Positions 1-26,471 of a DNA stretch of 26,471 nucleotides are shown here, piece after piece. The stretch spans positions 1 through 26,471 of the IMG/VR virus record IMGVR_UViG_3300025120_000457; one strand, written 5' to 3'. Position 1 is the stretch's first letter. Each line of letters starts with the position of its first letter. Below the pieces are notes generated by a model. That model was not told where the DNA came from. It did not search any database and worked only from the letters and a program-made list of their open reading frames with translations. The DNA is from a virus. The position numbers and the translations under genes were made by a program.

Positions 1-1
1 A

Positions 2-1684
2 TACGACGGTGGACCGTTTGCGTCAATGGTTAGAATTCTTGAGTATACAGATAAATTAGATTATCTTGTTGTTGCACATACACAAAAATTAGAAGAGTCA
101 GCAGGTAGAGTTGACTACAGCGGTGATGATGTTTATACAGGACTTGCACGTAAACTTGGATTAATTGATAAGAAATCAAATTCAACAACATATGAGCACC
201 CACAAGTAATTGACCTTGCATTTATGCATCATAAACTTCATAGTGCTTGTGCATTTTATCGTTCGGGATTTGATAGTGCAGTAAGTGTTATTGTTGATGG
301 TGCTGGTACATTTGTACCAATTGGTGTTAATAATGAACAAGTAATGAGTTGGGAAGTTGAAAGTATTATTGATTGTGATTATCCAGCAGTCTTTAATACA
401 CTACATAAAGTTTATGGAACAAGAGATCCTATACAAGGCGGTATTGTGCAAATGGATAGTACACAATTTGGTGAGAGCGGACGTACACACTCAGCAGTTG
501 TAAGTGATAGAGCAGGTATTGTTAAAGCATACGAAGCCGCAACTATGTACTGTGGATGGCAAAGTATCGAAGCAGGAAAAACTATGGGATTATTTCCATA
601 CGGTAAACCTAATGATAAGTTTCCAGCATTGTTTGACGACACAGCAGATTATCCATTAACAAATAGAAATATTATTGTTCCAAACTATCCTAATGGTGCA
701 ATGATTAATTCAGGGCTATATAAAGAACTTACAGAAGTTGGCAAGCCTGAAGAGGACTTAACACTTTTACAAAGCAGAAGAGATATTGCATATGCTGTAC
801 AAACAGAAACACAAGAACAAGTTACAGAATTAATTAAGAACGCTGTTGATATCTCTGGTAAAAAGAATGTTGTTATCAGTGGCGGATACGGACTAAACTG
901 TGTAGCAAATTATCATTATTTAGATGCACTTAAAGACGAAGGCATTAAGTTTTATGTTGAACCAGTTAGTAATGATGCTGGTACTGCTATGGGTGCGGCA
1001 ATGATGTTTTGGTACGGATTAGAAGACGAAACTGAAAAACGCCAAACACAAACATTATACTTAGGACCACATAATAATTACACATCCAAAGATGTTATTA
1101 CTAAAGCAAAAGAAGCCGGGGTAGAATTGTCAGATGCTACACATACAGATATTGTTGAATTAATTACGAATAAAAATATTGTTACACTATTCCAAGGACA
1201 AAGTGAAAACGGTCCACGAGCATTGGGTAACAGAAGTGTACTTTATGATCCAACTGATCCTAACGGTAAAGATCATGTTAATAACGTAAAACATAGAGAA
1301 TATTTTAGGCCTTTTGCTGGAACTATTTTACAAGACGATGTACACGAATGGTTTGATTTACGTGGAATGGAAGACAGTCCGCATATGATGTATGCTGTAA
1401 ACTGTCAGCCAGGTATTAAGGAAAAGATTCCTGCTATTATTCATATAGATGATACATGTAGAATTCAAACTGTTACACAAGAACAAAATAAACACTATTA
1501 TGATTTAATTAAAGCATTTAAAGAAAAAACAGGATGTCCTATTATCTTTAATACTTCATTTAATCTAGGTGGAGAGCCTCTTGTTGAAACTATTGAAGAT
1601 GCTATTTGGACCTTACAAAACAGCGATATTGAATACTTATACCTACCTGAGTTTGGAAAATTAATCACCGTTAAAAACGCATAG
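2..1684 (+). CDS. Carbamoyltransferase (NodU/CmcH/TobZ family), 5' end cut by window
   Basis: This family transfers a carbamoyl group from carbamoyl phosphate, via a carbamoyl-adenylate, to a hydroxyl on a sugar or natural product. The reading frame is open to the left window edge, so the ATG at 26 is probably internal and the true start, with the usual N-terminal 'GINxxHDAS'-type segment, lies outside. Visible family marks are the HHKLH histidine motif (about 227-241) followed by a DGAGT-type nucleotide-binding turn. Further along are the PRALGNRS motif (about 1214-1237) and a C-terminal NTSFNLGGEPLVET motif (about 1550-1590) typical of the family's C-terminal domain. The kinase-like Kae1 fold precedes that domain. 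A tail-fibre module follows downstream, and a heptose-nucleotide gene cluster lies on the other strand. I infer a role in decorating a phage- or host-made glycan. The substrate cannot be read from sequence. Family assignment is strong. Confidence 0.92.
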   Translation, partial: YDGGPFASMVRILEYTDKLDYLVVAHTQKLEESAGRVDYSGDDVYTGLARKLGLIDKKSNSTTYEHPQVIDLAFMHHKLHSACAFYRSGFDSAVSVIVDGAGTFVPIGVNNEQVMSWEVESIIDCDYPAVFNTLHKVYGTRDPIQGGIVQMDSTQFGESGRTHSAVVSDRAGIVKAYEAATMYCGWQSIEAGKTMGLFPYGKPNDKFPALFDDTADYPLTNRNIIVPNYPNGAMINSGLYKELTEVGKPEEDLTLLQSRRDIAYAVQTETQEQVTELIKNAVDISGKKNVVISGGYGLNCVANYHYLDALKDEGIKFYVEPVSNDAGTAMGAAMMFWYGLEDETEKRQTQTLYLGPHNNYTSKDVITKAKEAGVELSDATHTDIVELITNKNIVTLFQGQSENGPRALGNRSVLYDPTDPNGKDHVNNVKHREYFRPFAGTILQDDVHEWFDLRGMEDSPHMMYAVNCQPGIKEKIPAIIHIDDTCRIQTVTQEQNKHYYDLIKAFKEKTGCPIIFNTSFNLGGEPLVETIEDAIWTLQNSDIEYLYLPEFGKLITVKNA

Positions 1685-1702
1685 CGTCTTTCTTCAAACT
1701 CC

Positions 1703-1710
1703 GATAAATA
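1703..1710 (+). promoter_or_regulatory. T4-type late promoter box (GATAAATA)
   Basis: This is a GATAAATA octamer, one mismatch from the T4 late consensus TATAAATA. It lies 20 bases before the ATG at 1731. With the T4 spacing (box at about -13 to -6), transcription would start near 1716 and give a leader of about 15 bases with only a weak ribosome-binding site. The same octamer recurs before other virion genes in this window. Confidence 0.75.
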
Positions 1711-1730
1711 GTATAAAGCGAGTTTGAATT

Positions 1731-2120: not shown

Positions 2121-2130
2121 ATCATTGTTA

Positions 2131-3094: not shown

Positions 3095-3097
3095 TTA

Positions 3098-6000
3098 ATG
3101 GCAAAGAAGAAAATTGGTAATTATAAGTTTAAGCCAGGAATAGGTTATACAGAAAATCTATTTCCAAACGCTTATGCATTATTAAATGCAAACAAGGCAT
3201 TTTTACAAGCAGAAACTGGACAGTTTATTACATCAAGAGTAAGTGATGCTACTGCATTTCAAGCAGACTTAATTTCATTAGTTGATGACTTAGAACAAGA
3301 AATAGTTTTAGGAACAACGGCTACTCAAAGACTTTGGGGGCAAATTGAAAATCAAAAAACTACTAATCAAAAGTTAACACGCAAAAGAACATTAACGAGA
3401 TTAAAAACTGCACTTGCGGCATTAAGCAATGTAACAAGTACATATCAAACTGCTATGGAAAATGCTATTGATGAAATTATAGACATTGCTGATAATGGAT
3501 TTACTTCAGCGACTGCATTAGTTACTTCGGAACGTACAGGCGAAACAGAACTTAATATCGGATATGCTGTTACACAAATAAAAAATAATAGAGCATTTAT
3601 GATTGCAGAAGTAAAAGCATTTATGAATGTTGATACTCCAGGTAATACAGTTACAACAGCGGCAACTTTTGAAACTAATTTAGGTTTATTATTAGATTGT
3701 ATTACACAAGATATATCAACAACAGCAAATAATTTAACTAAAACTGTTAATGAAGAAATTTATGTACTTACAGCACCAGCAGATAGATCACTTTTAGGTG
3801 ATGGTTTAACTAGACTTGCAACTGTTATAAAACAGATTGTTGAAAAGTCAACTGTAATACGTACTACTGGAAATTCATTAACACAAAGCACTACAGGTAC
3901 AGTATCAAGTACAGTACTAGGTGATAGAACTAGACAGCATGTATTAGATACACAAACTGTTGTTGCTAATGGAACTGTAGCAAGTTTGCCTAGTCCGGTA
4001 TATCCTAATTATAGTGACGAACCTGCGGCAGGACAAGCGGCGGCAACTGATTTAGAAAATAATAAAACTACTGTTGCAACTAGTGTAAATGGATTTTATA
4101 ATTACACATTTAATCAAGCAAAATGTGAAAGAGACACAGGACTAATTTTAAACGCTTATTTGTTTGATCTACGCTACGGCGGCAATATGAAAACATATAA
4201 CTATGCAAGTAAATATTGGGAAGGCGATGTTGCACAAGTTGACGGAACACGTTATCCAGAAACAGATACACATAGTTGGCTTACAGTATTAATTAAAGAC
4301 TTTGTTCTTAATAAAACAACATATCCAAATGAACAATCAGCAACAACACAAACAATTACAGGCACTGACGCAGAAGCCGGTGCTGATACACCAATTACAG
4401 ATTTAGGTACTTTAGTAGTTGATACTATTGCAGGTGGATTAAGTGCAAGACCTGTATTTGTAGACACAGGCGCAGGCTATATTAAATTTCCTGGAAATTA
4501 TGATTCTAGTGATATATTATTAATTACAAATACTACAAATAACGAAGTTATATATTCCTTTAATGATGTAAACGCTGGCGGTGTTACAGAATTAGCAACA
4601 GCATTTGTTTCAACTAATGACGTTGCTTATAAAGATGATCCAGACTTTCCAAAGTACTTACAAACAACTGACGCAATTACAAAAGTTTATTTAAACAAAA
4701 ATACATCAACACAGTTAAATGTAGACAGACTACAGATATATGTAGATACAGATGAATTAATTATTAGACCATTTGAGTTTGGTACAGATGCTATTGAAAG
4801 AAATAGAACTGCTGAACCACAGTCAATGCTTGACGCTGACTTTGAGTATGGACTACAGCCTACTAAGTGGAGTGCTATTGCAACGATGCGTGGATATCCA
4901 TCAGTTTACGAAATTCCAGGAACTGAAACTAGTGTTATATCAGTTGTGTCAGATAGTAGTGCAGGCACAGCAGGAGTTGGTAGTTCATTAATTACTGTTA
5001 CAACAGCAGGTGCTCATGGATTTGAACTTGGTGATGCTGTTACTATCAAAGGATTAAAACAAGACATACAAGGATACAGTAGAGCAGAAGGTGCATTTAT
5101 TATTATTGCAGTACCTAATGCAGTTAGTTTTCAATATTATGCAAAAGCAAAAGTTGGTGTAAGTGGAAATGTAAACATCGAAGCAGAAGCAACACAATTA
5201 AGACAAGCAGGATTTTATACTGGTGCTAGTATTGGCGTTCCAGCATTCAGCGTTGAAAGTAACGGTAGTTCAGGTGTACTTAGACCTGCATTGACTGTAG
5301 CATTAGGCGAAGATGTAATTCCATTTACAGTACAATCAGGAGGCGCACCAGAAGTTGGTGCTCCGATGACAGCATCAAGTGGTATTGCACTTGGTACACA
5401 GGTAACTGGTAAAGTTGGTACAGGTGGTATTGCAGTAACTCCAGTAGTTACAGCAGACTATGGTCCAGGCACAACAGATATTGATGTGCAAAGTGCTACA
5501 GGTATCCAACAAAATATGGCGGCTAATAAAGGCGACGGTACTCCTACACTTGTAAATACAGTTGTAGGTACTACTATTACATTTAGTGATGCAATAACAT
5601 CTGATGTTAAAGGTAACTATGTGCAATATACAGGTATTTCAGGACAAAACGTTGTTAGTTTAGGTTATGGGGCTAGTTTAAGTATTAGCAGAGCCGCTGG
5701 AAATTATTCATTAGTTGAAATTGTAAACTCAGGACAAGATTATAATGTTAACGATATTTTATTAATTCAAGGTGAGTTTTTGGGAGGTGTAACCCCTACA
5801 AACGATTGTACTATTACAGTTGATACAGTTGACACAGGCGGAGAAATTTTAACACTAACATTAGCAGGAAATGCATTTAATGGTACTGGAAATTTTGGTA
5901 ATGTTACAGGAGTATATCAAAACGGCCAAGGTAACGGCGGACTTTGGAATCTTGGATATACCAGTAATGTATATAATAGTGTTACATTAAGTAATCCATC

Positions 6001-9000
6001 CTTTCCTTCACAATCAGGTACAGTTAGCGGTGGTTCTGGTACAGGTGTGTTACTTGATTTTGTTATAACAAACAATTCGTATGCAGTAACAGTAGATCCA
6101 GCAGATGCAGGAGTAACAGGCTATAGTGTTTACGATATAATTGAAGTAGCAGGTAATAATTTAGGCGGTACATCACCTAACAACGATGCACAAGTTACTG
6201 TAGTAAGTGTAGATAGTAATGGTTACCCAACAGGAGTAAGTGTAACAGGTAATGGAGCCAATGCTACTAATAACTTTGTTAACGTAACATTTAGTACAAA
6301 TAATTCAGGTATTGGCGCAAACTTAAATATTGGCACAGACGGTGCAACATACACTCCGACATTTACAGTTACTGGTACAGGATTTGCAGTGAATGATACA
6401 GTCACAGTATTAGGTACACAAGTTGGTGGTGCAAGTCCATTAAACGATATTACAATTACAATAGATACAGTTGACACAGGTGGTGAAATTTTAACATTTA
6501 CTACATCAGGTACAGCAGTTAACAGTCATTCTTATACAGGTATTGCTAATGGAGTTAATTTAGTAGGTTCGGGTGCTGGTTTTGATGTTGTTATTGACGG
6601 TCTTACTGAAACATACCTAGTTACAGTTGCCACTGCAGGTAATAACTATGCCCCTAATCAAACAGTAGTTCTTCCGGGTACAAGTTTTGGTGGTGAAGCA
6701 GGAACTAACGACTTAACACTAACAATTACAGATGTTAGCAATGATTCAACACTTACAGCAGGTGGAATTTTAACAGTAAATGTTGCTGGTACAGCAGTTA
6801 AGTCTACAAGTGGATATAAAGTTGCAGATAGATTAAAAGTCAACGGTAGTTCATTCCCAGGAGGCGCTGATACAACAAACGATGCGATTATTGAAATTAC
6901 AGCAGTAGATAGCGGCGGCGGGATAACAAACTTTGCAACAACAGGTACAGCACCAAATGGTATAGAAACTTATACAGCAGTAACCGGTACAGCAAGTGCA
7001 AGCGGTACAAGTGCTACATTTGATGTAACACGTACTGGTACAACATATACTGCATTCTTAAATGGAGCAGGTGCTAACTTTGTTCAAAACGAAACTGTTA
7101 CAATTTTAGGTACAGATTTAGGTGGTGCTACAACAGCAAACGATTGTACAATTACTGTAGACAGTGTTGACGGTAGTGGTACAATTTTAACACTCACACC
7201 AACAGGTACTGCGGCAAACGTAGGCGCACTTAATAATACATCAGCGTCAAGTATTGCAGGTAATGGTGCTACATTTGATGTTGCGTTAGCAGGCGGCTCA
7301 TATACCACAACAGTTTCACAAGCAGGACAAGAATATTACACCGGACAAAAATTTATAGTCACTGGTAATTTACTTGCAGGTGGTACACCTACTAACGATT
7401 TAACAATTACAATTACTGGAGTTAATGCTTCGGGCGGTATTACAGCAATAGGATCTGTTGGTACAGCAAGTACTGATGTTGGCAGTTTTCCAAATGTTAC
7501 AGCAAATACAGCAAGTGCTACAGGTAACGGACTTAGTATAGATGTTTTAAGAGACGGTACTGCGGCAGATAGTAGTGTAGGTACTTACACATTTAGTATC
7601 AGCAATCCAGGCGGCAACTATAATATTGGCGATAAAATTAAAATCGGCGGTGAACTTTTAGGTGGTAACTCTGCTATACACGATGTAGAAGTGCTAGTCG
7701 ATTCAATTGATAGTGCTGGCGCGGTAGTAACTTTCACAGCAACTGGTGATGCCTTTGCAGGAACTAGTTTTGATTTATACAGTACAGTTACAATTGATAC
7801 TCCAACTACTGCACAACTTGCAACTACACTAGATATTAGTTTTAGTGCATTGGCTACATTAAGAATTAATTTTGATTCAGCACACGGACTAGTTCCAGGC
7901 GATACATTTATTACAACAGTTGACTCAGATGACGGTAGTAACAATCACGATTTAGCGGCTGGCTCATTTATTGCAACAACTATACCAAGTTCAACATCAC
8001 TTACATTTACTGCTAGAGCGGCAGGTGCAATTGATGCGGCAAGCGATAATATTAATGGTACAGTTTACCCAAGACCAGATTCGTTCTTTATTCACAGACC
8101 ATTTGATGGCGGTGTACAACTAGGAACAGGTGGACCACAACACGGTGCTCAAGCAATACGTCAAAGTAAAAAATATATTAGATATCAGTCAGGTAAGGGT
8201 ATTATGTATACCACTGGTGCGTTGTTTGCTCCAAGTTATGACTTAAGAACAGTAACATCATCAGGCATAGAAACAGGTTCAACGATTACAGTAACATGTG
8301 ATGACAATGATCACGGTTTACAAATTGGTGCAAGAGTTAAATTAATTGGTATTGAAACTGTTGGCTACAATGGTACATATACTGTAAATGATGTTCTTGA
8401 CGAACGTACATTTGAAGTTATAAACACACTAAACAGACTGGGCGGAACATCAGCAATATTAAGTTTTGGTGCTCAAATGTCAACATTCCAATGGCACGGT
8501 GCTACTGTACGTTCAGGTGTATTTGATGATCAAAACGGAATTTATTGGGAATATGATGGCACAAACTTATTATGCTGTCAGCGTACTTCAACTAAACAAA
8601 TTTCAGGCACAGGGGCAATAACACCAGATACAAATACAGTAACAGGTACAAATACTAGATTTAGAGATCAACTTAAAGCAGGTGATAGAATTGTTATACG
8701 TGGTATGACACATGTTATTAGTGGTATTGCAACTCAAACATCAATGACAGTTACACCAGACTATCGTGGAGTAAATGCGGCAGTAGGTACTAAGATATGT
8801 TTAGTTGCTGATAAAAAAGTTAGACAAACTGATTGGAACTTAGATAGGTTAGACGGAACAGGTCCAAGTGGATACGATTTTGATCCTGCTAAGATGCAGA
8901 TGATTGGAATTGAATATTCATGGTATGGTGCTGGTTTCATTGATTTTATGGTACGTGGTGCAGATGGTAACTTTGTATATGCACATAGAATTAGAAATTC

Positions 9001-10522: not shown

Positions 10523-11040
10523 AGGTTATAATTTACAATACAGCGTGGATTGTCAGTTGGAAATCCTCCAGCATGTAGTGTGTTACCGTCAAACAAAACA
10601 ATACGTCCTTTTTTAGGTGTAACTCTTTGTAGTTCTTTATCATCTGCAAAGAATATTGTATCACCATCGCTATCATTTACATAATAGATTAAACCTAGAT
10701 GTTCTTCGGGTCTATCAGTATGCGGTGCATAATGATCTAATGTTGTTTTGTGAGGTACTGTAATAAAAAGCCTAGCAGTAATTATATCTATAAAATTTAC
10801 ATTAAGTGCTGGGCATACTATTTGAGGGACTTTGCTAAAATTTCCAAAGTGTTCTGTTAACTTTGTACTGCTTTTTAAAACATGCTCAAAACTTATAGGC
10901 ATTGTACCGTTATCTATAGCAGTAGGTTCATGTTTACATACAAGTGGTAACATTGCATTAACACTAGTGTTACCAAATACAAGAGTATGATAGTAGTCTT
11001 GTAATTCTGTTGGTATTAAATCGTCTTTAACTATTATCAT
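10513..11040 (-). CDS. 2OG-Fe(II) dioxygenase, prolyl-4-hydroxylase-like
   Basis: A 175-residue single-domain oxygenase of the 2-oxoglutarate/Fe(II) double-stranded beta-helix family. The metal triad is visible as H107-T-D109 (in YAPHTDRPEEH) and H156 (in GNTLHAGGF). R166 (in NPRCIVNYNL) is placed to bind the 2-oxoglutarate carboxylate. The layout is close to prolyl-4-hydroxylase-like proteins, which hydroxylate peptides or small molecules. It is the last gene of the minus-strand cluster and overlaps gmhB by 14 bases. Its stop overlaps the end of the giant fibre gene by 10 bases, with no room for a classical terminator. No convincing Shine-Dalgarno is present, so translation may be coupled to gmhB. 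It belongs to a different subfamily from the three other dioxygenases in the window. The substrate is unknown; fibre proteins or sugar intermediates are candidates by context only. Confidence 0.88.
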   Translation of the reverse strand: MIIVKDDLIPTELQDYYHTLVFGNTSVNAMLPLVCKHEPTAIDNGTMPISFEHVLKSSTKLTEHFGNFSKVPQIVCPALNVNFIDIITARLFITVPHKTTLDHYAPHTDRPEEHLGLIYYVNDSDGDTIFFADDKELQRVTPKKGRIVLFDGNTLHAGGFPTDNPRCIVNYNLYA

Positions 11041-14655: not shown

Positions 14656-14660
14656 ACTAT

Positions 14661-14689: not shown

Positions 14690-15116
14690 GTAAATTTAAC
14701 ACTTTTGTTACAGTTTCTAATTTACTTTGATTAATTTTACTTTGCAATGTATTACGCAATCCGTGATGTAAAGGTTTAGGCCAACTACCACTTTTGACCC
14801 AAGCGTACCCATCATGTTCTCCGTTTAGAATAGGAATAAATTCTTCTTTAACTGCACAAAGATATGTATGAAATTGAAATTGATGATCAGTTGAGATAAA
14901 AGTTTCCAAAGGAATTGTTTTTTCGATCTTAGGTTCAAATCCAACTTCTTCGGTTATTTCTCGTTTTAATACTTCCCAAGGAGTTTCTTTACCTTCGCCG
15001 GTGCCGCCAACTAACCCCCATAGGTTTTTAGTCTTGCCTTGGGCTCGGTGTAATAAAAGAAAACGTTGTGTTTTTAGACTGTAGAATAGAGTTCCACTGC
15101 AAATTATCTGGTTCAT
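14676..15116 (-). CDS. Nudix hydrolase
   Basis: A 146-residue Nudix pyrophosphohydrolase, which cleaves nucleoside diphosphates linked to another group. The complete Nudix box G-x5-E-x7-R-E-U-x-E-E-x-G-U is present at residues 38-60 (G38, E44, R52-E53, E56-E57, G59). Upstream strands WGLVGGTG are typical of the MutT-like/NUDIX 1 group. The gene starts 8 bases after the gp15 stop with no obvious ribosome-binding site, so it is probably read from the late gp14-gp15 transcript by coupling. Its end holds the promoter for hldE. Substrate is unknown; candidates are oxidised nucleotides, nucleotide sugars (ADP-heptose is an obvious one to consider) or capped RNA. Confidence 0.88.
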   Translation of the reverse strand: MNQIICSGTLFYSLKTQRFLLLHRAQGKTKNLWGLVGGTGEGKETPWEVLKREITEEVGFEPKIEKTIPLETFISTDHQFQFHTYLCAVKEEFIPILNGEHDGYAWVKSGSWPKPLHHGLRNTLQSKINQSKLETVTKVLNLLDKP

Positions 15117-15124: not shown

Positions 15125-16561
15125 TTAGCCGTTGAGTGCTATTCTCCAGGTCCCTCCTGGATATAATCCCTCAACACTTAACAGCCATTCATCGCCGTCC
15201 CAGCGATATTGTATGCCTGTATTTAAATTAGTAGTATATGTTACTGCGGATACAGTTGATGCATCAAAAACAATTACCCAACTTTGACCGTCCCATTCAA
15301 CAATATCATTACGTTTAGCAACTAAGTCTCCTGAGAAGCCTCTCCAAGCATCTGCACCTTCTACATTACTAGCATCACCTATATCATTTAATAATAATAG
15401 TCTACCGCCTAATCCTTTCATTACATTAGTTGGTACAGTTTTTTGTGGATCAATAATGTAATCAATAGTTGTCCATTGATTGTTGTTTCTAATAGGACCT
15501 TGTATAATAGTATTACTTGGGAACGTATCAGTATCCCAATTTATTATAAGTTGTGATTCGTTTATTGAATTGATACTAATTGTGCCAGTAATTTCGTGTG
15601 TAACTTCATTTAACTTTGTAAAGTATATTCTACTTATATCATCTTGATACTGTCCTGGGTGTGAATCTAATATTTGTCTCCAATTAGTTGCACCTACTAT
15701 ACCACGACTTTCTATTTGTGCTAGTGTACCCTGTACATATATACCATAATCTTGATAATTTGTACCTACTACATGTTTAGCCGCAGTAGTTTCAACTGAA
15801 CGATTTCCGTCTTTGTCTGCTACTCCAGGCACAACACTATCGTCGTGTGCATTTAATGTTGGCATACTTAATCCTAAATCTAATGTTCCTGTATTTTCGT
15901 CAAAGATACTTGTAATAATATTTGTAATAACACCAAGTCTTTTAACTTTAACTGGAGGACTGATATAAATTGGTGTACTAAATGTAAGTGTTGATACATC
16001 AATTTCGCTATCAACACCAACTGGTACACTTCTTGAACTCCATGTAACACTATCTAACATCACATGTGTTAAACTGGTCCAGTCTATATAGTTGTCAGTT
16101 GTTTGCACTTCTAAACTAGGATTAAACAATACTAGTATTTGTTCTAGTATTTGAAGTTTCATATCTGTATTGGTTGACCATATATCACAATTAAATGTAA
16201 GTTTATATGGTGTAGGCATTAATCTTTCTACTGTATAATTTTTACCTTCAAAATTTAGATATTCTTTATTATTACTATCGTATGCACGTTCTCTAATGTT
16301 TACTTTGCTAACATAACTAGCATCTGATGTACGTTCTCGATCTATTTCCATACCAGTTACATGCACAGCAATACGTGGAGCACTAGGTATTTTGTTTTCT
16401 GTGTTATCACGGATTATATTTGCAACTTGACGTGTAAGATCTCCATACGTAACAGGAATTTGTGTTAAGGCACCCTTGCCATCTTTAACTGAAAAATTAC
16501 TCATTAGTCTTACCATTTGAGTAACGTAGCGCCTTACTTGTCCATCATAAAAATGTTCCAT
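15125..16561 (-). CDS. gp15: Tail terminator / proximal sheath stabiliser, T4 gp15-like
   Basis: In T4, gp15 caps the finished tail and connects it to the neck. The N-terminal about 230 residues match the gp15 pattern: FYDGQVRRYVTQMVRLMSN, then IPVTYGDLTRQVANI, then TPYKLTFNCDIWSTN with LQILEQILVLFNP, then the WSSRSVPVG and YISPPVKV strands. It is 478 residues long against about 270 in T4. The added C-terminal half is beta-rich and ends in two small 'W/Y-DG-x-x-W' modules (roughly DIVEWDGQSWVIVFDA and IQYRWDGDEWLLS). Similar modules occur in gp14 and gp18 here. Its ATG overlaps the gp14 stop by one base (TAATG). It is transcribed away from gp13, unlike the colinear 13-14-15 order in T4. Confidence 0.85.
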   Translation of the reverse strand: MEHFYDGQVRRYVTQMVRLMSNFSVKDGKGALTQIPVTYGDLTRQVANIIRDNTENKIPSAPRIAVHVTGMEIDRERTSDASYVSKVNIRERAYDSNNKEYLNFEGKNYTVERLMPTPYKLTFNCDIWSTNTDMKLQILEQILVLFNPSLEVQTTDNYIDWTSLTHVMLDSVTWSSRSVPVGVDSEIDVSTLTFSTPIYISPPVKVKRLGVITNIITSIFDENTGTLDLGLSMPTLNAHDDSVVPGVADKDGNRSVETTAAKHVVGTNYQDYGIYVQGTLAQIESRGIVGATNWRQILDSHPGQYQDDISRIYFTKLNEVTHEITGTISINSINESQLIINWDTDTFPSNTIIQGPIRNNNQWTTIDYIIDPQKTVPTNVMKGLGGRLLLLNDIGDASNVEGADAWRGFSGDLVAKRNDIVEWDGQSWVIVFDASTVSAVTYTTNLNTGIQYRWDGDEWLLSVEGLYPGGTWRIALNG

Positions 16562-18560: not shown

Positions 18561-19205
18561 ATGCATTATGAGATTACACCTTTATTTTCAACTCCTTTAC
18601 TAAAGTCACATATTGGACCATTAGATCCAATTACACTTGCATGGCTCAAGCGATTAGACTATCCGGATAGTTCAGTTGCTCAATATGGCAACGAAGATCA
18701 CTTACCGCAGTCAGAGCGAGGATTTGATGTCCTTAACCAGCCAAAATTATTAAACCTACAAACACTAATCAAACGTGCAGTAGATCATTTTGCTTATACA
18801 GTATTAGATGTTATTGATGAAGTAGAATTTAGACTTACAACTAGTTGGATTAATAAAATGGATGTAGGCAGTGATATAGAGTTACACAATCATGCTAACG
18901 CTGTGATTAGCGGAGTTTATTATCCTGATGTTGGACCGCAGAGTAACGGTCTTACGTTTAAGAAAAATAAGCAACATTTAAACAGTTTTCCAGAACATGT
19001 ACGTCCAGATACAAAGCAAAACTGGAGTCAATATACTTCTGGAGAATGGACTGTACAACCTGTAACAGGCGATGTATTAATTTTTCCTAGCCACTTAGAG
19101 CATATAGTTGCTAAGAGTTTAGATAAACAAGATAGATACAGTTTGGCTTTTAATTACTTTCCAAAAGGATCAATAGGACAAAATTCAGTTAGGACAAATA
19201 TATGA
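18561..19205 (+). CDS. 2OG-Fe(II) dioxygenase, phage type (paralogue B)
   Basis: A 214-residue protein with the same plan as the gene at 12047-12691. It starts with ITPLFSTPLL, then TTSWINKMDVGSDIELHNHAN carrying H109, H111 and N113. The SGVYYPDV strand follows, then TGDVLIFPSHLEHIV with H181 and RYSLAFNYF with R192 as the probable 2-oxoglutarate anchor. It is tandem with paralogue C (ATGA overlap at 19202-19205), and the N-terminal 36 residues of the two align position by position (PLFS-PL, then DP-T-AW--L-YPD). The start codon lies six bases after a strong -10 box, so no ribosome-binding site is available and the message is probably leaderless. Target unknown; oxygenases of this type are common in marine T4-like phages. 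Confidence 0.87.
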   Translation: MHYEITPLFSTPLLKSHIGPLDPITLAWLKRLDYPDSSVAQYGNEDHLPQSERGFDVLNQPKLLNLQTLIKRAVDHFAYTVLDVIDEVEFRLTTSWINKMDVGSDIELHNHANAVISGVYYPDVGPQSNGLTFKKNKQHLNSFPEHVRPDTKQNWSQYTSGEWTVQPVTGDVLIFPSHLEHIVAKSLDKQDRYSLAFNYFPKGSIGQNSVRTNI

Positions 19206-19819
19206 AATATCAAACAACTCCTTTATTCTCCATACCTTTATTTTATGCAAATATTGGAACTGTAGATCCTACAACAATGGCATGGGTAGAAAAACTAGAA
19301 TATCCTGATGAAGCGGCAGGGCATGAACATACTGCGGACAAGTATATTTTAAATAAACCTAAATTATCAGGACTAAAAACTCAAATACAAGAAGCATGTA
19401 ACGTTTTTGTAAAAGAAGAATTAAAAGTTAATGATGATGTTGTATTTGAATTACAAAATAGTTGGATCAACAAACATTCAAAAGATGAAAGTAATAGTTT
19501 ACACTGGCATAGTAATGCAATGTTAAGTGGAGTATATTATATTCAAAATGAGCCAGATGCTGGAGATATTGTTTTTAACAAATCACATTTATATACAAAC
19601 TTATTTCATGATACTGTAAAGGTAAGTTATTCAGAACCAACACAATATAGTGCAAATGAGTTTTATATTAGTCCTAGATCAGGAGACATAGTTATGTTTC
19701 CAAGCCATTTAGAACATCACGTAACCCCAAATCTAACAACAACACCACGTTACAGTTTAGCATTTAATTTTTTTGCTAGGGGAACTGTAGGCGGCGGTAC
19801 TTCGGAACTTAAAATATGA
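19202..19819 (+). CDS. 2OG-Fe(II) dioxygenase, phage type (paralogue C)
   Basis: A 205-residue tandem duplicate of paralogue B. Motifs are TTPLFSIPLF at the start and NSWINKHSKDESNSLHWHSNA with H101, H103 and N105. These are followed by SGVYYIQNEPDAGDIVF, then SGDIVMFPSHLEHHVTPN with H172, and RYSLAFNFFARG with R183. It starts at the ATG overlapping the previous stop (ATGA), with an AGGA site about 8 bases upstream inside the previous gene. It ends in the same kind of ATGA overlap with the nucleotide kinase gene. Low N-terminal identity outside the motifs indicates that the duplication is old. Keeping both copies suggests different substrates. Confidence 0.87.
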   Translation: MKYQTTPLFSIPLFYANIGTVDPTTMAWVEKLEYPDEAAGHEHTADKYILNKPKLSGLKTQIQEACNVFVKEELKVNDDVVFELQNSWINKHSKDESNSLHWHSNAMLSGVYYIQNEPDAGDIVFNKSHLYTNLFHDTVKVSYSEPTQYSANEFYISPRSGDIVMFPSHLEHHVTPNLTTTPRYSLAFNFFARGTVGGGTSELKI

Positions 19820-20427
19820 TTATTGGAATATGTGGCCTGATAGGCTGTGGTAAAGGTACAGTAGGAGATATCTTAGTTGAGAATCACGGATTTACAAAAC
19901 TAAGTTTTGCTGATAAATTAAAAGATGGTGTAGCAACAGTATTCAATTGGGATCGAGATATGCTAGAAGGCGATACCGTAGAAAGTAGAGAGTGGCGAGA
20001 AACACAAGACAAATTTTGGACTAGAGAAACAGGGCGTACTATTACCCCTAGATTAGTATTACAAGAGTTTGGTACAGATTGTATGCGACACGGATTTGAT
20101 AATGGTATTTGGGTAAGTTTAGTAAAACAAGAACTAGTTAAATATCCCAATAAAAATTTTGTTATACCTGATGTAAGATTTCCTAATGAAGCAAATATGA
20201 TTAAAAGTATACACGGCGAAGTATGGCGTGTAAAACGTGGACAAGATCCTGTATGGATGCGTATGTATGAAGATATTGGTGTTGAACCTAAAGATGTACA
20301 CGAGTCTGAATGGCGATGGGCAAAAGTTGATTTTAACAATGTTATATATAACGACTTAGGTATTGATGAACTTAAAAGTCAGGTAAAAGGTCTCCTTGCT
20401 TCCAACGAACACCTTGTTTCTGCATAA
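19816..20427 (+). CDS. gp1: Deoxynucleoside monophosphate kinase, T4 gp1-like
   Basis: A 203-residue P-loop kinase that would phosphorylate dNMPs to dNDPs for phage DNA synthesis. The Walker A motif is GLIGCGKGT (7-15). Further family marks are 'LSFADKLKDGVATVFNW' (residues 29-45), 'RLVLQEFGTDCMR' (about 79-91), 'GIWV', and 'VIPDVRFPNEANMI' (about 116-129), which are typical of the phage dNMP kinase family. The gene overlaps the dioxygenase by ATGA, so the early promoter at 18526 would serve all three genes. Its 3' end overlaps the antisense HNH gene by 56 bases, so its last 18 codons are shared with the HNH coding sequence on the other strand. Nucleotide specificity is not readable. Confidence 0.88.
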   Translation: MIIGICGLIGCGKGTVGDILVENHGFTKLSFADKLKDGVATVFNWDRDMLEGDTVESREWRETQDKFWTRETGRTITPRLVLQEFGTDCMRHGFDNGIWVSLVKQELVKYPNKNFVIPDVRFPNEANMIKSIHGEVWRVKRGQDPVWMRMYEDIGVEPKDVHESEWRWAKVDFNNVIYNDLGIDELKSQVKGLLASNEHLVSA

Positions 20428-20707
20428 TACGTTGACAATTGGCACATATAGTTTTTAAGTTCATTACTGAGCAGTTTTCTAAATTTCCATCTACATGATA
20501 TACATCAAATTGTTCTTGATGTTTGCTTTTATAATTACATTTTTCACAATGGTCTTTTTTGACATAACCACGTTGATGCCATTTAGGTACGCCATGCTTA
20601 GAACCATTACGTAAACATGTTTCGCACTTCTTACGATAATAGATTTTACCGGCTTTTTTATAGTTTATAGCCGCAGGTCTTAGTTTACAATCGCATAAAG
20701 GTCTCAT
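20372..20707 (-). CDS. Small HNH endonuclease (possible homing endonuclease)
   Basis: A 111-residue Cys-rich protein. Two zinc-binding sets are visible: C5, C7, C28 and C31 near the N-terminus, and C54, C57, C88 and C91 around the HNH core. The core itself is 'FDVYHVDGNLENCSVMNLKTICANC' split as H71, N78 and N83 within the two-cysteine-pair frame. This is the usual layout of small phage HNH nucleases. A GAGGT ribosome-binding site lies 12 bases before the ATG. It is the only gene between the dNMP kinase and gp18, is antisense to both, and overlaps the end of the kinase gene. That is the placement expected of a free-standing homing endonuclease inserted between phage genes. It could alternatively act in packaging or host DNA nicking. 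Confidence 0.82.
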   Translation of the reverse strand: MRPLCDCKLRPAAINYKKAGKIYYRKKCETCLRNGSKHGVPKWHQRGYVKKDHCEKCNYKSKHQEQFDVYHVDGNLENCSVMNLKTICANCQRIMQKQGVRWKQGDLLPDF

Positions 20708-20812: not shown

Positions 20813-23800
20813 ATGGCATTATCATCACCAGGTGTTGAGGTTAAAGTAATTGACGAGAGTTTTTACACGCCCAGCGAACCAGGCACCGTACCAATGATAT
20901 TTGTTGCTACCGCACAAAATAAACAAAACGGCGGTGGAACTGGTACAGCACCAGGGACAACAGCGGCAAATGCAGGTAAACCTTTCTTGGTTACCTCACA
21001 AAGAGATTTAGTAGAAACATTCGGCGAACCATCATTTTATACGGATTCAAACAACAATCCGATACATGGAGGTGAACTTAATGAATATGGATTACAAGCG
21101 GCTTACTCATTATTAGGCGTAAGCAATAGAGCATATGTTGTTAGAGCAGGAATTGATCTTGCAGGATTGACAGCAAGTGCAGACGCTCCAACTAGTGCTC
21201 CAGCAAATGGAACATATTGGGTAGATACAGCAAACACTATCTACGGTGTGTCTGAATGGAATTCAGCGGCAGTAACTACAACTGGCGGACAGTCATTTAG
21301 TTACAAAGCCCCAACAATTATTACTGACGTAACAAAACTAGTTGGCGGTGTAGCAACAGGTGTACCTAAAACATCAGTAGGTGCAGTTGGTGATTATGCT
21401 ATCACAGCGGCAAGTACACTACACAAACTATACTACAAAAATGAAAGTGGTACTTGGGTTGAAGTAGGAACTGGCGCATGGAAAGCAAGTTGGTCTACAG
21501 TATCAGGTACTGCTGGCGCAACAACAACTTCAGGGTTGAACTTTACTATTAACAGTACAACAGTAACAGCAAACGCAACATCTGCAACAGCATTAGCAGG
21601 AGTAATTAACGGCTTGAGTATTTCAGGCGTAACTGCAACAGTTGAAGCGGCTAACGATATATTAAGATTACACTCAACAGGTGTTAACATTGTGATAGCA
21701 GAAGGCACAGGCGCTATGGGCGACATGGGTCTTTCAGCAGGAACATATGCGGCACCGGCGTTGAATATTGCCCCTCATACAAGTGTTCCCGAGTTTGGTT
21801 CAGGCGATACAACTCCACGCCCATCAGGAAGTATTTGGGTAAAAACTACTTCACCAAACAAAGGTGCTAAGTGGGCTATCAAAGCATGGAATAGTGCTAC
21901 ATCATTATGGGACACAAAAGATGTTTCAATTTTTAGTACACCCCAAGCGGCTTTAGCAACTCTTGATAAAACAGGCGGCGGTGCTAATTTAGCAATGAGT
22001 TCACTTTTCGTTAAATCAAATGATGCAGAAGCAAGTGACTTAGTTGCTAACTTCAAAGTGTACAAACGTAATGCAACTGGTGCAACATCAATTACATCAA
22101 GTGCAATTACTACACAAGCATCAAGTGGTTCAATTTCATTTACACTACAAGAGTCAATTGTTGGTAGTGCAACACTAGCAAGTGCAGTAACCATTACTGG
22201 AACAGCAGGTGGCGCGGCAACTGATGCAGACGTAATTGCAGGTGCAATTAATAATGCGGCAATGACAAATGTAAGTGCAAGTGTTGACAGTTCAAACAGA
22301 GTTGTAATTTCACACTCAAAAGGTGGCGAGATTAGAATTAAAGACACAAGCGGACATTTAGCAGAAATTGGTTTTAGTACAGCAAACACTACAAACTTAT
22401 ATGTGGCACCAGCAGGAGATACTGCTAGTGACTTTGTTGCTTCAAATTGGAAAGTGTTAACTGCAACTAACGGAGCAACTGCTCCAACAGCATTAGCAAC
22501 AGATGGTACATTATGGTACAATTCGGTTGTTGATGAAGCAGACATTATGGTACATAATGGTACAACTTGGGTAGGATATTTAGATTCAACAAGTCCGTAT
22601 TACAGTGCTAGTGCAGGTGATCAAACTGATCCAGCAGGACCAATTGTAAGTGCTACTGAACCTTTAGCGGCAACAGGACAATCAGATGGAACTGGTCTTA
22701 AAGATGGTGACATTTGGATTAACACTACAAACATTGGTAAGTATCCAGAGATTTATCGCTGGTCACATGCTAAACAACTTTGGGTGTTACTAGATTCAAG
22801 TGATCAAACAACACAAGACGGTGTACTGTTTGGAGATGCACGTTGGTCAACAGCAGGTGCTAACAGTAAAGAAGCAACTATTGCTGACTTACTAGCAAGC
22901 AACTTCTTAGACTTTGATGCTCCAGACCCAGCACTATATCCAAAAGGTATGATATTGTTTAATACACGTAGAAGTGGTTTTAACGTTAAGAAATTTGTAC
23001 GCAATGCAATTGATACAAATGCAAATAACGATAGAATGGGTGTTTCAGTACCAATGTCAAGTTACTATCCACACAGATGGAAAACTGAGTCAGCAAATAA
23101 TGCAGACGGTTCAGGTAAGTTTGGTCAATCGGCGCAGAGAGCAGTTGTTGTACAAGCAATGCAAGCAATGATTAACAGCAACCAAGATATTAGAGATGAT
23201 GAGTCCAGAATCTTTAACTTACTGGCGGCACCAGGATATCCAGAACTAATCGGTGAAATGATTACACTAAATTTTGACAGAGGCTTAACAGCATTTGTTG
23301 TAGGTGATTCACCAGCAACACTAGATTCAAGTGCTACATCAATTAACGAATGGGGCACAAACGTTGCTCTTGCAGTTGAAGATAATGCAGACGGTCTAGT
23401 AAGTAGGGATGAATACTTAGGTGTTTATTATCCATGGGGATTCACAAGTGATAATGCAGGCAACAACGTTGTTGTTCCGCCAAGTCACATGATGCTACGA
23501 ACTATTGCACTAAGCGATCAAGTTTCGTTTCCATGGTTTGCTCCAGCAGGTACAAGACGTGGTGGAATTACTAACGCAACAGCAACAGGGTATATTGATA
23601 GTGAAGGCGAATTTACTTCAATTGCACTAAACGAAGGACAACGTGATACGTTGTTTGGTATTAGTGTAAATCCAATTACGTTTATTACAGGTGCAGGACT
23701 TGTTTGTTTTGGTCAGAAAACTAGAGCAAAAAATGCAAGTGCATTAGATAGAGTAAACGTAGCAAGACTTGTTATATACATGCGTAGCCAACTTAATAAA

Positions 23801-24064
23801 CTTGCTAAGCCTTATATCTTTGAGCCAAATGATAAAATCACACGTGATGAGATCAAAAATGCGGCAGAAAGTTTAATGCTTGAGTTAGTTGGTAGTAGAG
23901 CACTATATGACTACATTGTAGTATGTGATGAATCTAACAATACTCCTAGTAGAATTGATAGAAACGAACTATACTTAGACATTGCAATTGAACCAGTTAA
24001 GGCAGTAGAATTTATTTACATTCCATTACGCCTTAAGAATACAGGGGAAATTGCAGGATTATAA
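20813..24064 (+). CDS. gp18: Contractile tail sheath protein, T4 gp18-like
   Basis: The sheath forms the contractile outer tube. The N-terminal about 115 residues (SSPGVEVKVID, VPMIFVATAQNK, VTSQRDLVETFGEP, YGLQAAYSLLGVSNRAYVVRAG) and the C-terminal about 380 residues are the conserved gp18 core. The C-terminal part includes FNTRRSGFNVKKF, YYPWGFTSD, PPSHMMLR, WFAPAG-RRG and the final NKLAKPYIFEPND / EPVKAVEFIYIPLRL. At 1083 residues it is far longer than T4 gp18 (659). The extra length is a central region (about residues 120-700) with four 'G-x-x-W-x-(D/N/K)-T' modules and two copies of an IN-like beta unit. In contractile sheaths such central domains project outwards, so this one probably decorates the tail surface. 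The gene has its own late promoter and a strong ribosome-binding site. Confidence 0.95.
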   Translation: MALSSPGVEVKVIDESFYTPSEPGTVPMIFVATAQNKQNGGGTGTAPGTTAANAGKPFLVTSQRDLVETFGEPSFYTDSNNNPIHGGELNEYGLQAAYSLLGVSNRAYVVRAGIDLAGLTASADAPTSAPANGTYWVDTANTIYGVSEWNSAAVTTTGGQSFSYKAPTIITDVTKLVGGVATGVPKTSVGAVGDYAITAASTLHKLYYKNESGTWVEVGTGAWKASWSTVSGTAGATTTSGLNFTINSTTVTANATSATALAGVINGLSISGVTATVEAANDILRLHSTGVNIVIAEGTGAMGDMGLSAGTYAAPALNIAPHTSVPEFGSGDTTPRPSGSIWVKTTSPNKGAKWAIKAWNSATSLWDTKDVSIFSTPQAALATLDKTGGGANLAMSSLFVKSNDAEASDLVANFKVYKRNATGATSITSSAITTQASSGSISFTLQESIVGSATLASAVTITGTAGGAATDADVIAGAINNAAMTNVSASVDSSNRVVISHSKGGEIRIKDTSGHLAEIGFSTANTTNLYVAPAGDTASDFVASNWKVLTATNGATAPTALATDGTLWYNSVVDEADIMVHNGTTWVGYLDSTSPYYSASAGDQTDPAGPIVSATEPLAATGQSDGTGLKDGDIWINTTNIGKYPEIYRWSHAKQLWVLLDSSDQTTQDGVLFGDARWSTAGANSKEATIADLLASNFLDFDAPDPALYPKGMILFNTRRSGFNVKKFVRNAIDTNANNDRMGVSVPMSSYYPHRWKTESANNADGSGKFGQSAQRAVVVQAMQAMINSNQDIRDDESRIFNLLAAPGYPELIGEMITLNFDRGLTAFVVGDSPATLDSSATSINEWGTNVALAVEDNADGLVSRDEYLGVYYPWGFTSDNAGNNVVVPPSHMMLRTIALSDQVSFPWFAPAGTRRGGITNATATGYIDSEGEFTSIALNEGQRDTLFGISVNPITFITGAGLVCFGQKTRAKNASALDRVNVARLVIYMRSQLNKLAKPYIFEPNDKITRDEIKNAAESLMLELVGSRALYDYIVVCDESNNTPSRIDRNELYLDIAIEPVKAVEFIYIPLRLKNTGEIAGL
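21520..22385 (+). repeat. Duplicated beta unit inside the sheath's variable domain
   Basis: Two protein segments, about 21530-21745 and 22165-22380, align along their length. Each has an F/VTI start, then T-A-T-A--A/G-INGL or INNA, then V-A-VE/VD, then LRLHS or VVISHS, then IxxxxG and a closing MGLS or IGFS. Between and around them are four 'G-T/S/D-x-W-V/Y/I' modules. This looks like an internal duplication of a surface-exposed domain. Confidence 0.75.
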
Positions 24065-24132: not shown

Positions 24133-24762
24133 ATGGCAATTTCAACACTCTCAAAAATTACAGTACCACTAGCGAGCGACGCGAGTTCATCAACACAAGG
24201 TTTGTTGATGCCAAAACTACAGTATCGTTTTAGAGTGACACTTGAGAACTTTGGTGTAAGCACACCAACAACAGAACTAACAAAACAGGTAATTGATGTA
24301 ACACGCCCTACAGTAAACTTTGAGGAATTAGAAATTCCAGTTTACAACAGTAGAGCATACCTAGCAGGAAGACCTACTTGGGAACCAATTACATTAAACT
24401 TAAGAGAAGACGTTAACAACAGTGTACAAAAACTAGTTGGCGAACAACTTCAGAAACAATTTGACTTTTTCGAACAGTCAAGTGCGGCATCAGGTATTGA
24501 TTACAAATACACAACACGTATTGAAATCTTAGATGGTGGTAATGGTGCAAACACACCAAATGTACTAGAAACATTCGAGTTATACGGTTGCTTTATCCAA
24601 AATGCAAACTATAACACACTAGCATATAGTTCAAATGAACCAGTAACTATTTCATTAGCAATGCGTTACGACAATGCTATCCAAACACCAGTTGGTGAAG
24701 GAATTGGAACAGCAGTAGGTAGAACTATTAACAGTCTAGTAACAGGCGGCGGCGGAATATAG
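24133..24762 (+). CDS. gp19: Tail tube protein, T4 gp19-like
   Basis: gp19 polymerises into the inner tube through which DNA passes. The 209-residue protein shows the family pattern: LMPKLQYRFRVTLENFG near residue 25-42, TKQVIDVTRPTVNFEELEIPVYNSRAYLAG (about 50-78), and the 'WEPITLNLREDVNNSVQKLV..QL.KQFDF' block. It then shows 'YKYTTRIEILDGG', 'VLETFELYGCFIQNANYNTLAYSSNEPVTISLAMRYDNA' and a glycine-rich C-terminus. The length is close to that of marine T4-like tube proteins and a little longer than T4's 163. It is flanked by its own late promoter and a strong terminator, forming a one-gene late unit, which suits a highly expressed structural protein. Confidence 0.93.
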   Translation: MAISTLSKITVPLASDASSSTQGLLMPKLQYRFRVTLENFGVSTPTTELTKQVIDVTRPTVNFEELEIPVYNSRAYLAGRPTWEPITLNLREDVNNSVQKLVGEQLQKQFDFFEQSSAASGIDYKYTTRIEILDGGNGANTPNVLETFELYGCFIQNANYNTLAYSSNEPVTISLAMRYDNAIQTPVGEGIGTAVGRTINSLVTGGGGI

Positions 24763-24795
24763 TAAAGCCGTAATATTGCCATAGTATTGAAAAAG

Positions 24796-24826: not shown

Positions 24827-24845
24827 TACGCACTTTTCTTTTAAG

Positions 24846-24853: not shown

Positions 24854-24858
24854 TTTAC

Positions 24859-26025
24859 ATGGCCAACATACTTAACGGATTCTTAAATAATGTTTTACAG
24901 GGTGCAACAAATCCTGGTGGTAATTTAAAAGATTATCAACATGCCGCAAGACTATTTACAGACGATGGCATGCGTCTTGCTCCCAAGACTAAATTCCTTT
25001 ATCATTGTGTCTTTGAATTAAGTCCTGAAGCACAAAAAGTTATACCCCAGTTAGATCAAAGACATAAACAAGAAATCAATATGCTTGTTAAGTCAGCAGA
25101 TTTACCTAAGTTTAGTATTCAAACTTCAACTAAAAATATGTATAATCGTAAAAAGAATTTACAAACTAGTATTGAATATGATCCAGTGAACATTACATTC
25201 CATGATGATAATATGGGATTAACTACAACATTGATGGAAGCATATTATAGATATTATTTTAGAGATGGAAATTATAACGATGATGGTATTAATCCTCCTT
25301 ATAATCCTCGTAACACATATACAGATCCAATTTCACAAAATTATAGATATGGTTTAGACAATGATCATAAAACACCTTTCTTTAATAAAATTACAATTTA
25401 CCAAATGGCTAGACACGAATATCTAGGGTATACATTAGTTAATCCTATGATTACAGGTCTAACACATGATCAAATGGATAGCATGGATAATGCTACACCT
25501 TCTCAAAATCAAATAAGCATTGCATATGAAGCAGTATATTATAGTAGAGGTGCAACAGGCGAAAACAGTCCAAAAGGATTTGCTACAACACACTATGATA
25601 AAACACCTAGTCCATTAGGTCTTGCTGGCGGAGGCACTAGTAGTTTATTCGGTGGTGGTGGAGTACTTGGTGGTATTAGTAGTGTACTTGGTGATATTGC
25701 AGGCGGCCAATTTAATCTTGGTACAGCATTAACTGCATTTAACACATTTAAAAATGCAAAATCATTATCAAAAGAAGGCTTACGTGAAGAAGGGTTTAAT
25801 ATTTTAAAAAGTACAATTACAAATATAGGAAGAGAAAATGTAGGTGGACTTAGTAATATTAGTATTCCTAAATCATCAGGCAATGGTGGTAATACATCGA
25901 TAACAAATACAAATGGCGGAGCAGTTGATACTGGTGCATTAATATATGGACAAAGAGTAAACCAGGCATCAGGCAATTCTACTGCCGGAACTACATTACA
26001 ATCACAAAGAAATGGACCAAGATGA
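24859..26025 (+). CDS. Tail-tube-fold baseplate protein (gp54/gp48-like tube initiator, tentative)
   Basis: A 388-residue protein. Residues about 40-250 have the layout of a tail-tube-like domain: 'PKTKFLYHCVFEL' strand, 'INMLVKSADLPKFSIQT' (the 'VKSADLP' turn is typical of tube proteins and T4 gp54), and 'IEYDPVNITFHDD...TTLMEAYYRYYF'. These are followed by 'ITIYQMARHEYLGYTLVNPMITGLTHDQMD' and 'NQISIAYEAVYYSRG'. The remaining about 130 residues are Gly/Ser/Asn-rich and probably flexible. Its position directly after gp19 and before gp4 fits a baseplate or tube-nucleating role. I cannot separate gp54-like from gp48-like, and a general virion protein is possible. It has its own late promoter, after a terminator, with a predicted leaderless start. 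It overlaps the next gene by ATGA. Confidence 0.72.
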   Translation: MANILNGFLNNVLQGATNPGGNLKDYQHAARLFTDDGMRLAPKTKFLYHCVFELSPEAQKVIPQLDQRHKQEINMLVKSADLPKFSIQTSTKNMYNRKKNLQTSIEYDPVNITFHDDNMGLTTTLMEAYYRYYFRDGNYNDDGINPPYNPRNTYTDPISQNYRYGLDNDHKTPFFNKITIYQMARHEYLGYTLVNPMITGLTHDQMDSMDNATPSQNQISIAYEAVYYSRGATGENSPKGFATTHYDKTPSPLGLAGGGTSSLFGGGGVLGGISSVLGDIAGGQFNLGTALTAFNTFKNAKSLSKEGLREEGFNILKSTITNIGRENVGGLSNISIPKSSGNGGNTSITNTNGGAVDTGALIYGQRVNQASGNSTAGTTLQSQRNGPR

Positions 26026-26387
26026 GTAGTACAGTTAAAATAGAACCAGTTGATAGTTCAGCAGAAATGAAAGAGTTTTTTAACAAATATTTTGTAGATC
26101 CAATATCGTATAATGCTACACAAGTTGATTCAGTTGTAGGATTTTTTCTTAAAAGAGGTTTTGAAGAAACATCAGCAACAGGTGTTGCAACAGTACTTTT
26201 ACAACAAGCAAAAATTGATAATGTTAATGTGTTTACATTGCTTGATACACTAAAAGGATTAACCGATGTACAAATTAGTAGTTTGGTTGGAGAAATTGTA
26301 AACTATAATAGATCTAAAGTTAGTGTAATAGGATTTAAAATAACCGACATTGTTACAAAACAAGAATCACGTAATATAGTGGTATAG
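26022..26387 (+). CDS. Small conserved virion-associated protein, function unknown
   Basis: A 121-residue, mostly alpha-helical soluble protein with no membrane segment. The central part (about residues 35-100) alternates helices: VDSVVGFFLKRGFEET, ATVLLQQAKIDNVNVFTLLDTLKGL, VQISSLVGEIVNYNR. A short beta C-terminus ends in NIVV. The start overlaps the baseplate-like gene by ATGA and gp4 starts 4 bases after its stop, so it lies within a late tail/head-completion operon. From memory, similar proteins occur at this spot in T4-like marine phages, but no function is known to me. It does not resemble T4 gp53 or gp25 in length or motifs. Confidence 0.85.
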   Translation: MSSTVKIEPVDSSAEMKEFFNKYFVDPISYNATQVDSVVGFFLKRGFEETSATGVATVLLQQAKIDNVNVFTLLDTLKGLTDVQISSLVGEIVNYNRSKVSVIGFKITDIVTKQESRNIVV

Positions 26388-26391
26388 ATCC

Positions 26392-26471
26392 ATGGGACGC
26401 TTTGCTCAGGGAAAATATAATCTAAAGAATCCAGACAAGTATATAGGTAATAGAACTCCTACTTATAGAAG
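26392..26471 (+). CDS. gp4: Head completion protein, T4 gp4-like (3' end outside window)
   Basis: Twenty-six codons are visible before the window ends: MGRFAQGKYNLKNPDKYIGN then RTPTYR. This N-terminus matches the 'K-x-NP-x-KY-x-GN-x-x-P-x-YRSSWE' start of phage head completion protein gp4 (gp50/gp4), which stabilises filled heads. The ATG at 26392 follows the preceding stop by 4 bases, and no strong ribosome-binding site is seen. Assignment rests on a short but characteristic stretch. Confidence 0.75.
   Translation, partial: MGRFAQGKYNLKNPDKYIGNRTPTYR

Follow-up and report, generated by a model that had tools for sequence, protein, structure and literature searches.

Elimination of recognition sites is a known strategy of phages against restriction. 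In the survey of prokaryotic viruses by Rusinov et al. (2018; PMC6286503), it is described as an anti-restriction response for orthodox Type II sites, strongest in non-temperate phages, with about one-tenth of viral genomes having lost sites completely or almost so. Here, we describe a probable case that is unusually complete and phylogenetically resolved, with different lineages dropping different words. It centers on a 26,471-nucleotide stretch of viral DNA, IMG/VR record IMGVR_UViG_3300025120_000457 (hereafter the window, meaning this whole stretch), which contains no copy of GCWGC (GCAGC or GCTGC) and none of AGCT.

As in the viruses of that survey, the loss affects short Type II words, is near-total and occurs in a double-stranded DNA phage. 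The differences are that the phages here are uncultured marine ones, that at least six words are erased by lineage within one family, and that the changes can be placed on a tree. A second parallel is the depletion of GANTC in pelagiphages (PMC9516812), in which marine phages group according to how densely one methylation motif occurs, a pattern interpreted in that paper as perhaps left by restriction. That account concerns GANTC alone and is clearest in podophages of the Autographivirinae, whereas here GCWGC and AGCT are totally erased in T4-like phages and the window holds 39 GANTC sites. That aquatic bacteria do use GCWGC as a recognition word is shown by M.AbaBS3I, a GCWGC methyltransferase of freshwater Chloroflexi that makes N4-methylcytosine (m4C) and was verified with TseI digestion (PMC6329791). 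This enzyme differs in being tabulated there as outside any restriction-modification system and in having a freshwater host. In the open-licence literature, searched mainly by title and abstract opening, no description of GCWGC erasure in marine phages was found.

Absence of GCWGC and AGCT from the window

An earlier note, made from the letters alone, had claimed that GCAGC and GCTGC are missing from the window (35.7% GC) and that GCGGC and GCCGC are frequent. Both statements are borne out (0 and 0 copies; 44 and 11 copies), and the absence is stronger than stated. The note's rough expectation of 15-20 copies was too low: a maximum-order Markov model predicts 33.9, and 1000 synonymous-codon shuffles of the 22 open reading frames (ORFs) give 38.3 (sd 2.5, minimum 30). 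Within these ORFs, GCGGC and GCCGC together number 55, against 9.9 expected from codon shuffling, and it follows from this excess that the avoided word is GCWGC and not GCNGC. The note missed a second absent word, AGCT, which has zero copies in each of the three codon phases and is the sole 4-mer without a copy. The counts and three examples of the form that replaces GCWGC are as follows.

1-26471, no strand: stretch without GCWGC (0 observed, 38.3 expected) and without AGCT (0 observed, 79.7 expected), from word counts
4025-4029, + strand: GCGGC at an Ala-Ala position (GCG before GC), example of the form replacing GCWGC, read from the sequence
7211-7215, + strand: GCGGC, second example, read from the sequence
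21266-21270, + strand: GCGGC, third example, read from the sequence

These GCGGC sites lie roughly where the note had placed its Ala-Ala pairs written with GCG or GCC. Its remark on codon choice also holds: across the 22 ORFs, alanine is encoded by GCA 406 times, GCT 154, GCG 55 and GCC 29, and immediately 5' of a codon starting with GC the counts are GCG 33, GCC 9, GCA 0 and GCT 0. Other short sites are present, as the note said (GATC 65, GANTC 39, GGCC 10). Most of the GCWGC expectation in the window falls in codon phase 0 (26.4 + 10.1 of 38.2) and in genes of the + strand (33.5 of 38.2). With the expectation concentrated in one phase and one strand, the window alone is unable to exclude a codon-pair effect; the pooled relatives described below do exclude it.

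Erasure by lineage in the window's family

How widely is the word missing among relatives? Scans with the tail sheath and tail tube proteins of the window gave 156 loci, which together with the window and three reference phages represent 142 different contigs. A census of palindromic 4-mers and of 5-mers with a W or S center covered 139 focal contigs, a word being called erased when observed copies were at most 1/10 of expected and testable when at least 12 were expected (below, a/b stands for observed/expected for words and erased/testable for contigs in a census). GCWGC is erased in 43/110, AGCT in 22/138, CATG in 6/112, CTAG in 4/136, TGCA in 2/139, GCGC in 1/68 and CGCG in 1/21, and 59 of the 139 contigs have at least one erased word. 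Never erased were TTAA (0/142), GATC (0/127), GTAC (0/139) and ACGT (0/138). When all 4-mers were scanned in 79 loci of at least 10 kb, some contigs entering twice, the near-erased ones were all palindromes (AGCT in 14 loci, CTAG in 4, CATG in 4, GCGC in 2). GCAGC/GCTGC was the top near-erased 5-mer (39 of the 79 loci), and non-palindromic words were low only in scattered fashion, in 1-3 loci each.

The ratio of observed to expected GCWGC is two-peaked: among 114 testable contigs, 44 have a ratio of at most 0.1, 13 fall from 0.1 to 0.4 and 57 exceed 0.6, with the interval from 0.4 to 0.6 empty. The 54 pooled erased contigs (806 kb) contain 9 copies against 1305 expected, distributed over the three codon phases as 9/1197, 0/72.6 and 0/35.9 and over the two gene strands as 9/1019 and 0/286. 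The 63 pooled kept contigs (1.01 Mb) contain 2159 against 2208 expected (1875/1960, 165/176 and 119/72.4 by phase), and this agreement calibrates the codon null. Neither pool includes the 15 contigs with intermediate values or the 7 that were too short, and contigs were assigned to a pool by their GCWGC count; what is informative is the empty middle of the ratio and the agreement across phases and strands. Since the depletion holds in every phase and on either gene strand, codon-pair bias and causes acting on RNA are disfavored. Moreover, GC content runs from 33.4 to 40.1% in the erased contigs (median 37.2) and from 33.9 to 41.9% in the kept ones (median 37.6). The equal depletion at similar composition that the note had named as counter-evidence is thus not seen, for 63 relatives in the same GC range keep the word at expectation.

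Single large contigs tell the same story, with GCWGC at 0/134.6 in 117 kb, 0/126.1 in 110 kb, 0/114 in 86 kb and 0/69.2 in 66 kb, and with GCWGC at 0/86.5 together with AGCT at 0/155.4 in one contig of 57 kb. Other words vanish from other contigs (GCGC 0/117.8 in 118 kb, CTAG 0/105 in 55 kb). A separate search based on a helicase-like gene yielded 80 loci, 78 of them countable and 54 with an expectation of at least 8; of these 54, 32 have zero GCWGC (one of the 32 belonging already to the earlier set), 4 are intermediate and 18 are near expectation. A single motif combining AGCT and GCWGC can be ruled out, as the two are lost independently: L155 is without AGCT and keeps GCWGC, and L009 shows the reverse.

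On a FastTree phylogeny of the sheath (119 rows), erased and kept contigs group by clade, and GCWGC requires 10 or more changes of state and AGCT 5 or more when intermediates are counted as not erased. Two contigs inside mostly erased groups, L066 (48 sites in 167 kb) and L014 (50 sites in 99 kb), have a quarter of the expected GCWGC, dispersed along the contig. One reading is that the pressure has been lifted and sites are returning; another is that erasure is under way.

The fate of individual sites was followed in nine protein clusters by aligning proteins of kept contigs with their closest counterparts from erased ones, which placed 238 GCWGC sites of the kept contigs (556 others were not alignable). 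The encoded amino acids are changed at 102 of the aligned sites and unchanged at 136, and at 111 of these 136 the only difference is G or C at the center. When kept contigs are compared with kept relatives, 161 of 181 sites with the same amino acids remain GCWGC. Considering that the loss is lineage-specific, independent of codon phase and gene strand, and achieved mainly by changes of the central base, there is good support for selection that acts on DNA and targets GCWGC itself.

For AGCT, the window's clade has zero copies across all ten flank classes (155 kb). In several contigs with partial loss, residual sites lie in the context GAGCT in 8/8 cases in L116, 6/6 in L148, 6/6 in L141, 1/1 in L139, 2/3 in L100 and 23/33 in L099 and L136 combined, compared with 823/3018 (27%) in contigs that keep AGCT. 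It looks as if the avoided word in those contigs were HAGCTD rather than AGCT. The longer palindrome AAGCTT is low even in focal contigs that keep AGCT (66/273 over 70 contigs).

Two other families of marine phages show erasure of other words. In 71 HTVC008M-like contigs, which are also T4-like, the erased words include AGCT (16/64), ACGT (12/59) and TCGA (12/44) and, with fewer testable contigs, GASTC (8/17), CASTG (7/27) and CGWCG (7/8). In 77 HMO-2011-like contigs they include CCWGG (46/51), GATC (46/75), CGWCG (11/18) and TCGA (8/69). Neither group has GCWGC among its listed erased motifs. One HTVC008M-like contig, L221, has TCGA at 0/37 in 22 kb, and 6-base palindromes are generally low in the HMO-2011-like contigs (L301-L380; median ratio 0.12).

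Probable host restriction and rival agents

Restriction explains the data best, in that the fully erased words are all short palindromes and vary from lineage to lineage and from one phage family to another. The reading we prefer, with a probability of roughly three in four, is that Type II restriction sites were eliminated lineage by lineage under restriction by the host. Like the sites of orthodox Type II enzymes, GCWGC and AGCT are palindromes; ApeKI cuts GCWGC, and AluI cuts AGCT. The ancestors of the window's lineage would long have met hosts with Type II enzymes cutting GCWGC and, separately, AGCT. Each genome copy with such a site would have been at risk of cutting, and mutations that destroy the word, mostly silent ones (GCA-GCN to GCG-GCN), would have been retained until zero sites were left. 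The same process, with other enzymes, may have removed CTAG, CATG, GCGC or TGCA elsewhere in the family. Restriction had already been put forward in the earlier note as the source of selection on GCWGC. That proposal stands as regards selection on the DNA and as regards the best explanation for it; its weak points are AGCT, which it overlooked, and the host, in which no GCWGC methylase or nuclease was found.

Several points weigh against host restriction. No enzyme for GCWGC or AGCT was found in a host, and the host itself is not settled. One permease, carried by two erased lineages (G018, and G003 close to the clade of the window), shares 79-84% identity with proteins of SAR11 (Pelagibacteraceae), but the same permease is 75-81% identical to contigs labelled Dehalococcoidia/Chloroflexi, one of which is the best match of the G003 copy. 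ClpP of G018 is 73% identical to other genomes of the phylum of SAR11 versus 69% to SAR11. The permease and ClpP signals conflict, and SAR11 may not be a host of the family. Restriction systems of SAR11 are, moreover, described as nearly unreported (PMC7029224 and PMC9516812). The persistence of GCWGC erasure over wide divergence also exceeds the simple expectation for a host trait of patchy distribution, and some non-palindromic words are low in single contigs (for example, ACGCT 1/38.5 in G018). HldD gave no useful host signal, its best matches being at 42-43% identity.

Given how rarely SAR11 restriction is described, methylase and nuclease loci of the Pelagibacterales are of interest. C5 methylases pass the cut-off in 71 of 397 Pelagibacterales genomes and in 7 of 53 genomes of one family. 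Six neighbor genes of Pelagibacteraceae methylases comprise a BsuBI/PstI-type nuclease and an HNH_2 protein above cut-off, two PDDEXK_5-like proteins just below it and two without a match. In the Pelagibacteraceae genomes L473-L480, L482 and L483, methylases of C5 or N4/N6 type are encoded in addition to CcrM, and the C5-methylase loci of L473, L474, L477 and L480 have such nuclease-like neighbors. The palindrome CTGCAG is at 56/340 in GCWGC-erased focal contigs, 189/515 in kept focal contigs, 58/245 in HTVC008M-like and 363/322 in HMO-2011-like contigs. A link between this depletion and the BsuBI/PstI-type nuclease beside a C5 methylase is suggestive only, because other 6-base palindromes are low too (AGCGCT 0/79.7 in erased and 8/113 in kept contigs; ACGCGT 0 in both pools, 0/39.7 in the erased one) and because the host is not settled.

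Could the agent be carried by the phages themselves? No C5 methylase (PF00145) was found in 39 family records and no N6/N4 methylase (PF01555) in 26, these being virus records whose completeness is not established. PADLOC and Pfam were run on 219 of the 229 representative proteins of the family, or 321 when those of the reference phages are added, a set without the three commonest structural clusters and without proteins shorter than 90 or longer than 1300 amino acids, and on 106 further proteins from five erased contigs. Among the matches listed (25 of 28 for PADLOC; 25 of 62, 42 and 53 Pfam families), from genomes not known to be complete, there was no convincing Type II restriction gene, and no nuclease gene convincingly tracked an erased word among the proteins scanned. 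A phage-borne agent is thus unlikely.

The individual candidates fared as follows. An HNH gene resides in G019, where GCWGC is only partly depleted. Matches to Type IV and Type IIG restriction models both fall on one helicase-like protein (its middle and its end) of G027, which keeps GCWGC; its cluster is also present in the erased G018. A "nicking endonuclease" model matches the erased G1100 and G1103 (of 57 records) but also 14 of 14 control genomes, and the protein looks like a general repair enzyme. A small Cys/His-rich ORF beside the sheath gene is not supported as the agent, since 35 kept contigs have its cluster as well as 44 erased ones (enrichment by Fisher test, p 0.0009, uncorrected for the tree). 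A cluster of deoxynucleoside monophosphate (dNMP) kinase is enriched in erased contigs (39 versus 15, p 5e-8), but the states follow the tree and the PHROG assignment is kinase. One homing-endonuclease match also appeared in the PADLOC scan.

These results bear on the rival explanations. Codon-pair or mutational bias, with no nuclease involved, would fit the window, where the expectation consists mostly of Ala-Ala codon pairs in one phase, and the excess of kept contigs in phase 2 (119/72.4) indicates that the codon null is imperfect for that phase. The erased pool is nevertheless empty in phases 1 and 2 and depleted in both gene orientations, while kept relatives of the same GC range sit at 2159/2208; and C-to-T decay driven by methylation would yield GTWGC or GCWAC, whereas the observed difference is mainly W to S at the center. 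We give such a bias hardly any weight. The proposal that phages encode methylase-free endonucleases, one per lineage, which cut GCWGC (or AGCT, CTAG and so on) in the DNA of hosts or rivals and tell self from non-self by the absence of sites, is improbable. It would account for an erasure that is total and long-lived in large clades, as if every infection exposed the genome, and it agrees with the failure to find a methylase in the records searched. The lack of a convincing Type II gene among the matches speaks against it, a point limited by incomplete genomes and by the fast divergence of restriction genes, as does the erasure of AGCT in another phage family.

A further idea is that some other host or phage agent acting on DNA, such as repair nicking, packaging or nucleoid factors, reads short palindromes and drives the loss. 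The residual AGCT sites in the GAGCT context, which mean that the avoided word is not plainly AGCT in the partial-loss contigs, would suit it. The range of words, however (GCWGC, AGCT, CATG, CTAG, GCGC and TGCA here; CCWGG, GATC, TCGA and ACGT elsewhere), fits Type II enzymes as a group, and no other single agent known to us reads the whole set; we consider this idea quite improbable.

Fragmentary sequences of uncultured viruses show directly which words have been erased, and these words may record the restriction specificities that each lineage met, down to single-base detail (GCWGC and not GCSGC; HAGCTD in some contigs). If host restriction is the cause, they provide a testable link between marine phages and their hosts and suggest that restriction pressure in bacterioplankton is stronger than often assumed. 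If instead phage nucleases are responsible, the erased words would be the footprint of a self/non-self system based on the absence of sites.

Genes of the window and its relatives

T4-type sheath, tube and sheath stabilizer are all present in the window (by sheath homology, PHROG and PF16724), and judging from these genes it is a fragment of a T4-like contractile-tailed phage.

15125-16561, - strand: T4 gp15-like tail sheath stabilizer (PF16724, E 8.8e-31), which marks the contig as a T4-like contractile-tailed phage
20372-20707, - strand: small Cys/His-rich ORF, 111 amino acids, HNH/zinc-finger-like by eye only, with no Pfam or PHROG match
20813-24064, + strand: tail sheath, 1083 amino acids, by sheath homology; query for relatives and for the tree
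24133-24762, + strand: tail tube protein (phrog_4542, E 2.9e-52); second query for relatives

The window also carries PHROG-matched head-tail adaptor, tail tube proteins and dNMP kinase; the small Cys/His-rich ORF overlaps the end of the kinase gene, and its cluster occurs in 94 contigs. Positions 10513-15116 (- strand) contain what by eye appears to be an ADP-heptose module (HldE-, HldD- and GmhB-like) together with 2-oxoglutarate (2OG)-oxygenase (PF13640), cupin-like and Nudix-like genes. Three ORFs, at 12047-12691 (- strand), 18561-19205 (+ strand) and 19202-19819 (+ strand), are related and cluster together, and the second matches a 2OG-Fe(II) oxygenase PHROG.

The closest sheath relatives are uncultured IMG/VR contigs, with identity up to 91%. 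Among the closest named sheath matches listed are the large T4-like phages Phosso, Atu_ph07 and PA5oct (or PA5oct-like), at 48-50% identity over 63-65% of the sheath; these differ from the window in that the stretches read have not lost GCWGC (85/103, 48/58 and 53/54, respectively). A 43-kb stretch of the Agrobacterium phage Atu_ph07 (L158) has CCAGG/CCTGG (CCWGG) at 0/30.1 and CCCAG/CTGGG at 0/29.6. The wider group includes jumbo members, L554 with 357,559 bases and L550 with 261,806 bases, which carry a related helicase gene (about 70% identity).

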